Part shown: positions 1 through 42,207 of the stretch, piece by piece
How the letters are laid out: each line of letters begins with the position of its first letter
Position numbering within the stretch: the first letter of the stretch is position 1
Virus record (IMG/VR): IMGVR_UViG_3300025789_000067
Coordinates: 1-44,369 of that record
Length of the DNA stretch: 44,369 nt
Strand: one strand, 5' to 3'
From: a virus
The notes under the pieces: generated by a model
The model's input: the letters and a program-made list of their open reading frames with translations, nothing else
Databases searched by the model: none
What the model was told of the DNA's origin: nothing
Program-made: the position numbers and the translations under genes

Positions 1-239
1 TTTTGCCTGTGATGAGTCAATTCATGGGCTAAAGTGCGCATTACATCTAAAATATGTCTATTTTTAATATAGACTACAAGAGATCTGGTTTGATTTGAAT
101 ATTCTCCAAAAGTTCTTTTTCCTAAGACCCAATTTTTATCAGATATAAATTTGATCTTTGGCAACTTTTCAATTTCTAGAGCCTTTTTACAAAAATTTAT
201 AAAATCTACTAATATTTGTGCTTTTTTCTGTAATTCCAT
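1..239 (-). CDS. HExxH zinc metallopeptidase-like protein, C-terminus outside the window
   Basis: The reading frame opens with ATG at 239 and runs off the left edge, so about 79 residues are visible. Near the cut is the motif AHELTHHRQ, an HExxH zinc-binding motif; the two His would bind zinc and the Glu would be catalytic. The stretch before it (roughly VYIKNRHILDVMRTL) resembles the helix that leads into this motif in small phage metallopeptidases. The gene lies 14 nt downstream of the Mre11-Rad50 fusion on the same strand and is probably co-transcribed with it. The substrate is unknown, and the third zinc ligand would lie outside the window. The family call rests on the motif only. Confidence 0.7.
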   Translation of the reverse strand, partial: MELQKKAQILVDFINFCKKALEIEKLPKIKFISDKNWVLGKRTFGEYSNQTRSLVVYIKNRHILDVMRTLAHELTHHRQ

Positions 240-4964: not shown

Positions 4965-5594
4965 ATGAAAAAATTAAAAGAACAAGATTTAGTTGATAAT
5001 TTAGGTAAATTCTATGATTTATTATCTAAATATTTACCAGATAATAAAAGAACATCTAATCTTATTAATTTCTATAAGTCTATAGAGATTGTATTATTGA
5101 CATCTCCAGCTTCTGCAAGAATTACTCAAACTGGATGTTATCCTGGAGGATATATTGAGAGTACTATAAAAATTATAGAATCTGCTCTTATTTTAGATAA
5201 AGTTTGGGATAAATTACAACAGACTAAAAATTATACTATTGAAGAATTAGTATTTTCTGCTGCAAATTGCAATTTGGGTCGTTTAGGAACTAATGATAAG
5301 CCATTTTTTAAGCCTAATGATAATCAATGGGAAATAGATAAAAAAGGTGAATTATTTAAATTTAATCCAGAAATGACTCATATGAGATATTCTGATAGAG
5401 CAATATACACTCTTCAAAATGCTGGAATAAATATGACTGAAAATGAATTTTTATCTATAAAATTAAAAGATGGAGCATTTGATGAATCTAATAAAGTCTA
5501 TCTAATTCAGTACTCTCCAGAATTTGAATTAAAAAGTAATTTGCCATATATTATACATCAAGCAGATCTTATTGTAAATAAATGTAATCTATAA
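4965..5594 (+). CDS. HD-superfamily-like protein with apparently lost catalytic residues
   Basis: The 209-residue product follows the layout of phage HD-domain proteins: a PAS-x-GGY segment near 50-68 (PASARITQTGCYPGGYIEST), a middle helix where HD enzymes carry the His-Asp pair, and a final HQADL near 198. The usual metal ligands look replaced. GGYIEST stands where relatives have GGL-x-HS, AANCNLGRLG where they have LLHDLGK, and IKLKDGAFD where a His is expected. It is therefore probably a pseudoenzyme or a non-catalytic structural relative. It sits between the glutaredoxin-like gene and smpB, overlapping smpB by one base (TAATG). The family assignment is inferred from pattern similarity and is not certain. 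Confidence 0.5.
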   Translation: MKKLKEQDLVDNLGKFYDLLSKYLPDNKRTSNLINFYKSIEIVLLTSPASARITQTGCYPGGYIESTIKIIESALILDKVWDKLQQTKNYTIEELVFSAANCNLGRLGTNDKPFFKPNDNQWEIDKKGELFKFNPEMTHMRYSDRAIYTLQNAGINMTENEFLSIKLKDGAFDESNKVYLIQYSPEFELKSNLPYIIHQADLIVNKCNL

Positions 5595-6019
5595 TGATCA
5601 CTAAAAATAGAAAAGCTTATTTTGAATATGATATTATAAAAGAGTACACTGCTGGTATTGTTTTACTTGGATCTGAAGTAAAATCTATAAGAGTGGGTAG
5701 AAGTAGTATAAATGAAAGTTTTATTTATGTATCAAAAGGAGAGTGTTTTATAAAAGGAGTACACATTTCTAGAATTAATGGAGCACTTCATGAAGAGAAT
5801 AAAGATAGAAAATTACTATTAAATAAAAAAGAAATTGAAAATATAAATTCTCAAATAAAAGAAAAAGGAGTAACTGCAATTCCAATTGAATTTTTTATAA
5901 AAAATGGAAAAATAAAAGTAAAAATAGGAATTGGAAAAGGTAAAAAATTATATAATAAAAAAGAAAGTATAAAAGAAAAAGATATTAAAAGACAAATACA
6001 TAGAGAATTAAAAATGTAA
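5594..6019 (+). CDS. smpB: SmpB, tmRNA-binding protein for trans-translation
   Basis: The 141-residue product matches SmpB along its whole length: NRKAYFEYDI at the start, Y-x-AGIVLLGSEVKSIR at 18-33, a conserved GE-x-FIKGVHIS segment at 49-59, RKLLLNKKEI at 72-81, and the basic tail GKGKKLYNKKESIKEKD. SmpB binds the tRNA-like part of tmRNA and places it in the A site of stalled ribosomes, where its tail probes the empty mRNA channel. The tail motif that is DKR in most bacteria reads NKK here (121-123), and the tail is short compared with E. coli SmpB (160 residues). A tmRNA gene lies at 37987-38376 in the same window, so the pair probably works together. The start codon overlaps the previous stop (TAATG). 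Confidence 0.95.
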   Translation: MITKNRKAYFEYDIIKEYTAGIVLLGSEVKSIRVGRSSINESFIYVSKGECFIKGVHISRINGALHEENKDRKLLLNKKEIENINSQIKEKGVTAIPIEFFIKNGKIKVKIGIGKGKKLYNKKESIKEKDIKRQIHRELKM

Positions 6020-6022
6020 ATT

Positions 6023-6307
6023 ATGGGAATATTAATGATTATAGGAATAATAGTAGCATCTTGGGTGCTTTTAGCAATGGGGTGGGTAATATATAATCTA
6101 TATAGTAAAAATTATAAATTTGAGCAAATTATTGTAAATCAAAGTAATTTTATAAAATCAATTTTACAATTAGCTGATAGTATAGATAAGACTGTGCAAA
6201 AAATAGACTCAACTTTATGGGTTAGTGGAGATCAAGAGCTTAAGCAGCTTTTTAATGATGTAAAAATCATGCAAGAAAATATTCAGCAATTTACAAAAAA
6301 GCTTTAA
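6023..6307 (+). CDS. Small membrane-anchored coiled-coil protein
   Basis: The 94-residue product begins with a strong hydrophobic segment (residues 3-27, MIIGIIVASWVLLAMGW) followed by a charged helical region (ADSIDKTVQKIDSTLW onward), which suggests one membrane span and a cytoplasmic or periplasmic coiled coil. It lies 3 nt after smpB and one base before the late sigma gene, so it belongs to the same operon. I do not recognise a family. A role at the membrane is plausible, but its target is unknown. Confidence 0.75.
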   Translation: MGILMIIGIIVASWVLLAMGWVIYNLYSKNYKFEQIIVNQSNFIKSILQLADSIDKTVQKIDSTLWVSGDQELKQLFNDVKIMQENIQQFTKKL

Positions 6308-29959: not shown

Positions 29960-31069
29960 TTAATTTGAAAGTGGCATTTTTATTGCAGGATGACTTTGAT
30001 AATTCTCTAAAATAATATCATCCAAGGTATATTCTGAAATATCATTAATAACCCTATCGGATATTTTTACCGTTGGTAATTCATATGGTTCTCTTGTTAA
30101 CTGTTCTTTAATGCCATCTATTTGATTTTTGTAAATATGAGCATCACCTAAATTAGCAATTAGTTCATCAGGCACCATATTAACCATTTTACCTATAATT
30201 TCTAATAGAAGCGCATATGATGCGATATTAAATGGAAGACCTAATGGAACATCACTTGACCTCATATTGAACATTAAAGAGATTGCTCGTTTGGGAACTC
30301 CTATGGAATCATAATATGCCATTTCATCTCCATACTCTACGTCATATTTTGCCCCATATTTATACTGCCTAAGATGTCGATATCTCTCCAGTCTACTCAA
30401 CTCTCTCGTATAAAACTGAAAAAAGTTATGACATGGCCGAAGTACCATCTGGTCGAGTTCCCCCACGTTCCACGCTGATACAATTATACCTCTATCATCT
30501 GGATTTGTTTTGAGTATATGGATTGCATCTGCGATTTGGTCGGTTATACAGGTACCTACTTCATCTCTATTTGTTGTCCTATCAAAGTAAGTAAAGTATG
30601 ACATCCAACTTCTCCACTGCTTTCCGTATACTGGGCCAAGCTCTCCCCATTTTTCAGCAAACTCAGCATCCGTTTTAATACGCTCGATAAATTCTTCTTT
30701 TGATAGTTCATCTTGTACATCTGGAGCATAACCTTCTCTAATTGCTTGAGGGTTCAATGCAACGCAATTATTTAAAGTAATCGATCCCCTGTACTTTTTA
30801 TAAGCATCTCCTACCCATATAGTATTATCATTTTCTACGAGATACTCTATTGAAGTATCTCCACGTAAAAACCATAGAAGCTCGGTTACGATGCCTTTGA
30901 AGTACATTTTCTTTGTTGTAAGCAGGGGAAATTTTCCGTCTTTAAACTTATACCTAATTTGTCTTCCAAAAACACTCAATGTCCCTGTGCCAGTGCGATC
31001 ACTTTTTCGAACACCATTCTCTAAAATATCTTTTAAGAGATCTTGATAAGCTATGTCTATTTTATTCAT
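29960..31069 (-). CDS. thyA: Thymidylate synthase (ThyA type), enlarged
   Basis: The 369-residue product shows the ThyA core: RTGTGTLSVFGRQIRYKF near 25-42, then FPLLTTKKMYFKGIVTELLW near 47-66, the GPVYGKQWRSW segment near 145-155, the catalytic Cys213 in RPCHNFFQFY, and RSSDVPLGLPFNIASYALLL. It converts dUMP to dTMP with methylenetetrahydrofolate. It is about 100 residues longer than E. coli ThyA (264); the extra length lies near 95-140 and in a 35-residue Tyr/Arg-rich insert after FFQFYTREL (near 222-257). The gene overlaps the 31066-31377 gene by 4 nt. This supply of dTMP suits the A/T-rich genome. Confidence 0.94.
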   Translation of the reverse strand: MNKIDIAYQDLLKDILENGVRKSDRTGTGTLSVFGRQIRYKFKDGKFPLLTTKKMYFKGIVTELLWFLRGDTSIEYLVENDNTIWVGDAYKKYRGSITLNNCVALNPQAIREGYAPDVQDELSKEEFIERIKTDAEFAEKWGELGPVYGKQWRSWMSYFTYFDRTTNRDEVGTCITDQIADAIHILKTNPDDRGIIVSAWNVGELDQMVLRPCHNFFQFYTRELSRLERYRHLRQYKYGAKYDVEYGDEMAYYDSIGVPKRAISLMFNMRSSDVPLGLPFNIASYALLLEIIGKMVNMVPDELIANLGDAHIYKNQIDGIKEQLTREPYELPTVKISDRVINDISEYTLDDIILENYQSHPAIKMPLSN

Positions 31070-37660: not shown

Positions 37661-37733
37661 TATTCCTGATGGGTATCGATCCCACTCCCCTGCCTTGAAA
37701 GGGCAGCGACTCAACCATTTTGTCCTCAGGAAC
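37661..37733 (-). tRNA. tRNA-Glu (UUC)
   Basis: On the minus strand GTTCCTG pairs with CAGGAAT as acceptor stem (G1-U72), with A73. The anticodon stem CTGCC/GGCAG closes the loop CTTTCAA, giving anticodon TTC for GAA codons. The T loop is ATCGATA. The CCA end is not encoded. It stands alone, about 250 nt from the tmRNA and 4 kb from the other tRNAs. Confidence 0.85.
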
Positions 37734-37953: not shown

Positions 37954-37986
37954 AGATTTTATTTTATTAATTTATTATTAAAATAG

Positions 37987-38376
37987 TGGACATGTTGGGA
38001 TTCGAACCCAAGTCTAACAATTAATCCTATAAAACTCATTCACAAGCTTATTCTCGTTTTCTAACTAGACAAAATATGAAGTTTGATATATGTGGGAAAC
38101 ACACTTCTAAACAACCTGGTCTCAGAATTATTTTAGTTGGGCTCTGACCTGTGACCCATGAGGCACTTCTGTTTCTAGGGTATCATGCGACCCCACTGGA
38201 CTAAGCCGCCATTGCGAACTCACCATCAGCGAACGCCATAGCGTCCTCGAAAGTCCATGTAGATAATTCTACGTTTGCGTTTATTTTTTATATAGGTTAT
38301 TAAAGTGTTTCCAATACTAACACTGCCTGCATCATTTTAAAGAACTACATTGCCATCAATTACCAATCTCATGCCC
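37987..38376 (-). ncRNA. ssrA: Transfer-messenger RNA (tmRNA) with encoded tag
   Basis: The 5' end GGGCATG (38376-38370) pairs with CATGTCC (37994-37988) as a 7-bp acceptor stem that contains G3-U70, the alanine identity pair, and A73 follows. The T arm TTGGG-TTCGAAT-CCCAA is standard. Near the 5' end, GATTGGTAATTGATGG resembles the conserved tmRNA D-like region. Upstream of the tag, AATAAACGCAAAC gives a typical resume site. The tag ORF runs from 38278 to 38201: it begins ANVELSTW, ends EFAMAA and stops with TAG, 25 codons. The 3' region (AAGCTTGTGAATGAG) resembles the conserved helix region of known tmRNAs. CCA is not encoded. It works with SmpB (5594-6019) to free stalled ribosomes. Confidence 0.93.
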
Positions 38377-38392
38377 GATTATTATCATTGAT

Positions 38393-38410
38393 TATTATAC
38401 TATAAATATA
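38393..38410 (-). promoter_or_regulatory. Candidate tmRNA promoter
   Basis: On the minus strand the sequence TATATTTATAGTATAATA (38410-38393) stands 16 nt upstream of the mature tmRNA 5' end. The block TTTATAGTATAATA is identical to one in the middle of the tRNA array (42522-42509). It follows the same TAxxTTTxTA pattern as P1 and P2. A short leader would be removed by RNase P. Confidence 0.5.
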
Positions 38411-42135: not shown

Positions 42136-42207
42136 AGGACATACCCAGAACCGACCTGGAGACTCATGCTTACAAGGCAAGTATTTTTCCAATTAAACTA
42201 CACGTCC
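42136..42207 (-). tRNA. tRNA-Thr (UGU)
   Basis: Acceptor GGACGTG pairs with TATGTCC using two G-U pairs. The anticodon loop CTTGTAA gives TGT for ACA codons; the anticodon stem has one mismatch. T stem TCCAG/CTGGG holds an unusual loop GTCGGTT that lacks the usual TTC start. The tRNA is probably functional but somewhat diverged. Confidence 0.75.

Follow-up and report, generated by a model that had tools for sequence, protein, structure and literature searches.

A tmRNA gene has been reported for 402 of 18,146 phages (PMC9004378), and the available excerpts of the literature list ssrA for the mycobacteriophage Bxz1 group, Bacillus phage G and methylophage Melnitz and report no phage SmpB (PMC4131195, PMC9004378). 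These phages resemble the virus described here in carrying a tmRNA gene, which is two-piece in Melnitz and one-piece in our case. The tmRNA of mycobacteriophage DS6A type, which consists of the tRNA-like domain only, inhibits the host tmRNA (PMC4131195, PMC11915505), whereas the tmRNA described below has a full tag reading frame. Phages with both tmRNA and SmpB are already known from huge phages: the genes listed for them by Al-Shayeb 2020 include both (PMC7162821), and we found both in Lak-C1, Lak-B5 and LR756504. The Lak tmRNAs, however, encode a short tag, DDEI(D/E)FRMAA, instead of a tag of 25 aa, and their SmpB belongs to a different clade. Bacteroidota likewise have a one-piece tmRNA and an SmpB of the same family, and their tags (GENNYALAA, GNTQYAMAA) share the aromatic-A-hydrophobic-A-A ending of the phage tag, which has 15-17 extra N-terminal residues; the phage SmpB falls outside the bacterial branches of the tree.

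The stretch of DNA analysed, here called the window, is the entire IMG/VR record IMGVR_UViG_3300025789_000067 (44,369 nucleotides; linear, possibly a fragment), which has a G+C content of 28.5% and the gene content of a lytic myovirus fragment. Its genes include those for an SbcC-like nuclease, a primase and a baseplate wedge protein among the neighbours, as well as thymidylate synthase, RNA ligase, a DNA helicase and 13 tRNAs (ARAGORN). Two tRNA-like matches at 37661-37733 and 42136-42207 were found by Rfam and are absent from the ARAGORN calls. The thymidylate synthase (29960-31069; 368-369 aa) exceeds the Pfam model by about 100 aa, which suggests an insertion. Exact copies of TATAAATA, a T4-type late promoter core, occur at 29 sites on both strands, a raw count in an A+T-rich window; one of them, at 38401, is on the strand opposite to the tmRNA and close to its 5' end. 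A strong Shine-Dalgarno site was found in none of the 39 window genes examined, which, together with the low G+C content and the SmpB tree, suggests a host among the Bacteroidota. The features under study are the following.

4965..5594, plus strand: gene preceding smpB, 209 aa, without PHROG match
5594..6019, plus strand: smpB, open reading frame from ATG to TAA, 141 aa, full-length SmpB
6023..6307, plus strand: gene following smpB, 94 aa, without PHROG match
37984/37986..38376, minus strand: one-piece tmRNA gene (ssrA), found by ARAGORN and Rfam RF00023
38201..38278, minus strand: tag reading frame, GCA...GCT TAG (ARAGORN coding part 99..176 of the gene)

The sequence-only reading had proposed a full-length SmpB in the same phage as a tmRNA some 32 kb away, forming a two-part trans-translation system, and had named tagging of truncated virion proteins or replacement of host tmRNA-SmpB as roles that it might have. 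Indeed, both parts are present, while the combination as such is not new, given the huge phages named above. PF01668 matches the window SmpB with E=1.1e-47 and 162.1 bits (gathering score 27), aligning residues 2-140 with model positions 1-142 of 143, and the equivalog models NF003843 (162.8; cut-off 130) and TIGR00086 (157.4; cut-off 119.1) also score above their cut-offs. No competing family matched in Pfam or NCBIfam, and the top PDB matches are all SmpB (SsrA-binding proteins). The residues corresponding to E. coli GxEVKSxR and RKLLLN are conserved. The C-terminal tail, which is not truncated and extends to residue 140 in the alignment with A. aeolicus SmpB, contains GKK followed by a basic stretch, YNKK replacing E. 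coli HDKR. In the sequence TAATG, the start codon of smpB shares bases with the stop codon of the gene before it, within a run of plus-strand genes.

The tmRNA gene is found by ARAGORN and by RF00023 over its full length (77.1 bits, gathering score 47, model 1-374), on the opposite strand and in a separate operon at a distance of 31,964 bases from smpB. Its acceptor stem, GGGCATG/CATGTCC, contains the G3:U70 pair, which is present in 12 of 12 aligned relatives, and CCA is not encoded (CCACTA). The aligned relatives covary in the T-arm and also in the helix that brings the two ends together; the window tmRNA was read by hand in this alignment, its 5' end being one column off. Of the pseudoknots PK1-PK4, a PK1 stem region is what could be aligned with nested-only folding. 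The tag frame encodes ANVELSTWTFEDAMAFADGEFAMAA (25 aa) and closes with AMAA-TAG, that is, with a hydrophobic residue, -AA and a stop codon.

Three contigs from other metagenomes, 99.4-99.7% identical to the window, show an unchanged gene order around smpB. Samples 3300021142 and 3300020733 each contain an smpB contig with at least 99.3% identity to the window plus a second contig bearing the window's tmRNA tag, and the pairing of smpB with the tmRNA is therefore unlikely to be an assembly accident. Outside the near-identical contigs, smpB has no conserved neighbours, the sole exception being a primase that three contigs share at 24% identity.

A maximum-likelihood tree of 151 SmpBs, bacterial ones included, showed strong clustering of the viral rows (9 changes versus 50.5 in shuffles). 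The window SmpB is placed apart from the bacterial branches; its clade of 13 rows is exclusively viral (support 96/89) and forms part of a looser group of 25 viral rows (91/84), two huge phages among them. Judged from this tree, it is an established viral lineage and not a recent host gene. All contigs of the 13-row clade with a readable tmRNA (the window, G005, G015, G067 and G082) encode the same ELST-type long tag. On G067 (L091, 1491-2326), the last base of smpB, 1922, is followed directly by the first base of the tmRNA, 1923, on the same strand; this phage contig also carries a thymidylate synthase. In another viral clade (100/100), smpB and a tmRNA with a different long tag are convergent on opposite strands within about 1.5 kb (G033, G036, G037, G048, G051, G052; L057, L060, L061, L072, L075, L076). 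No ELST-type tmRNA was found on G007 (159 kb) and G022 (190 kb), both fragments with a window-clade SmpB, and no tmRNA of the window tag type on G017 (101 kb), whose SmpB is near-identical to a clade member; here either the partner gene is absent from the contig or SmpB occurs without a partner.

SmpB was detected by tblastn in 67 of 50,697 phage records, which, set against the tmRNA frequency cited above, is consistent with the idea that most tmRNA-bearing phages are without SmpB. Many of these 67 records are prophage-edge or host-derived, which does not apply to the huge phages (Lak and the Al-Shayeb genomes). In 'phage' records from Staphylococcus, Listeria, Klebsiella and Acinetobacter, smpB often lies at the record edge and is probably host DNA beside the ssrA integration site. 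In IMG/VR, at least 255 stretches encode an SmpB relative, and about 28 viral records have both SmpB and tmRNA, a count that leaves out records with smpB beside a short, bacterial-type tmRNA and includes several near-copies, so that independent origins are fewer.

To sample tags, IMG/VR was searched with a tmRNA 3'-domain pattern containing no tag sequence, and the tags were then read. The type [ST]xT-[FWIVY]-E-[DN]-[AV]-[ML] accounts for 43 of 67 usable stretches (44 of 68 counting the window); the remaining phage tags are other long tags, e.g. ALNGKTNVWEAINSFGAPVSQVEFAVAA, and a few short ones. Most of the representative phage tags have 23-31 aa, and most bacterial tags have 9 aa in a sample drawn mainly from Bacteroidota genomes. 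The window tag is the phage's own and not of the bacterial type. It has no match as a peptide in the 50,697 phage records. In some phage tmRNAs (L188, L190, L192, L219, L221, L222, L224, L225, L226 and L227), the apparent tag closes with -VA, -LA or -AV and not with -AA; most of this set has no ARAGORN call and was read by eye. These ends hint that phage tags are not mere copies of host degrons. Two pattern matches, L273 and L274, were dropped as unrelated reading frames.

From the intact state of both genes in the same phage and the joint inheritance of SmpB and tmRNA family, we consider it probable that the trans-translation pair of this phage is self-contained and has its own tag. The phage SmpB would bind the phage tmRNA at its tRNA-like end, and alanyl-tRNA synthetase would charge this RNA through G3:U70. 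The charged complex would enter ribosomes stuck on mRNAs that are broken or lack a stop codon, which are expected to be frequent late in lytic infection. The ribosome would then move to the tag frame, add the 25 residues and be released. The tagged product is probably a substrate of host proteases of the ClpXP type, since the xFAMAA ending of the tag is host-like (Chitinophagaceae tags end in YAMAA). The N-terminal 15-17 residues would represent a phage-specific extension, conserved both at the peptide level and by way of RNA hairpins. Points that weigh against this reading are the location of the two genes on opposite strands, the NKK of the SmpB tail, the lack of an encoded CCA, the long contigs with a window-clade SmpB and no such tmRNA (all of them fragments), and the hairpins in the tag, which partly confound its conservation as a peptide.

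SmpB and tmRNA of different species can function together, and the phage SmpB has general SmpB features. Both genes might therefore be functional without being partners, with the phage tmRNA working mainly with host SmpB and the phage SmpB mainly with host tmRNA, so that host rescue is boosted. Many contigs with an ELST-type tag show no SmpB, as this would predict, but they are fragments; the match between SmpB clade and tag family and the abutting smpB and ssrA of G067 argue against such independence, which we regard as unlikely.

Another explanation, to which we also assign a low probability, is that the long tag is kept only for RNA hairpins in the coding region, the peptide being irrelevant and the pair performing ordinary rescue. 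One hairpin, GTAGA/TCTAC, spans VELST; it is unchanged in 12 sequences, and its two sides covary in more distant ones, where compensated forms occur either with no amino-acid change (GTTGA/TCAAC) or with V to E and T to S (GAAGA/TCTTC). In addition, a CGAA/TTCG stem is nearly always paired, and pN/pS over all tag pairs, unrelated tags included, indicates a weaker constraint (0.49) in the sample chosen by RNA outside the tag. In the main tag family, however, pN/pS is about 0.23, with none of 200 column permutations as low, although pN is lowered to some extent by the definition of this family by residues. Differences are highest at third codon positions (0.45, versus 0.08 at second positions), and the compensatory change in L321 is synonymous on both sides. 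A second hairpin lies over FEDAMAF; about half of the sequences have a disrupted inner stem here with the residues kept, and pN/pS at the D-A-M-A/S codons is 0.19 despite this. An earlier pN/pS from a tag-pattern sample was discarded as biased and replaced by the 3'-domain-pattern set. The tag is thus under both RNA and peptide constraint, the shares of which are inseparable from sequence alone.

That the phage SmpB or tmRNA blocks or titrates host trans-translation and does not perform it is very unlikely: the DS6A precedent and the NKK in the SmpB tail (DKR in E. coli) would fit such a role, but the full tag frame under peptide-level constraint, unlike DS6A, and the untruncated SmpB tail speak against it. 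Finally, we dismiss for the window the idea that smpB is host DNA, carried or mis-assembled beside phage genes, or that it stems from a prophage at ssrA, since the gene is internal to a phage gene run, keeps the same order in three other assemblies and falls in the virus-only clade. Many smpB-bearing 'phage' records do have the gene at their edge (Staphylococcus, Klebsiella), and in several viral contigs a short-tag tmRNA lies no more than about 1 kb from smpB, as expected for ssrA-integrated prophages; for several records of these two kinds, edge-located or with an adjacent short-tag tmRNA, we accept host contamination or a prophage at ssrA.

Beyond the self-contained pair, which we favour, a bolder proposal can be put forward tentatively. 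Large phages might have a trans-translation of their own whose tag is bipartite, a host-readable C-terminal degron being joined to a conserved phage module, ELSTxT-FED-A-M-x-F. This module would send truncated proteins to a fate chosen by the phage, e.g. to an adaptor, to a phage factor or to a different protease; an SmpB lineage would be dedicated to the system, and the in-tag hairpins would control the reading of the tag. In the literature searched, we found no paper on the conservation of phage tmRNA tags and no description of a long conserved tag with a matching SmpB lineage, and the virus-only SmpB clade with its consistent long-tag type looks new.

The usual view of tmRNA tags is that of short labels for degradation. 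Long tags that are conserved at the peptide level across diverse phages, together with a matching SmpB lineage, suggest that viruses reprogram the fate of broken proteins.
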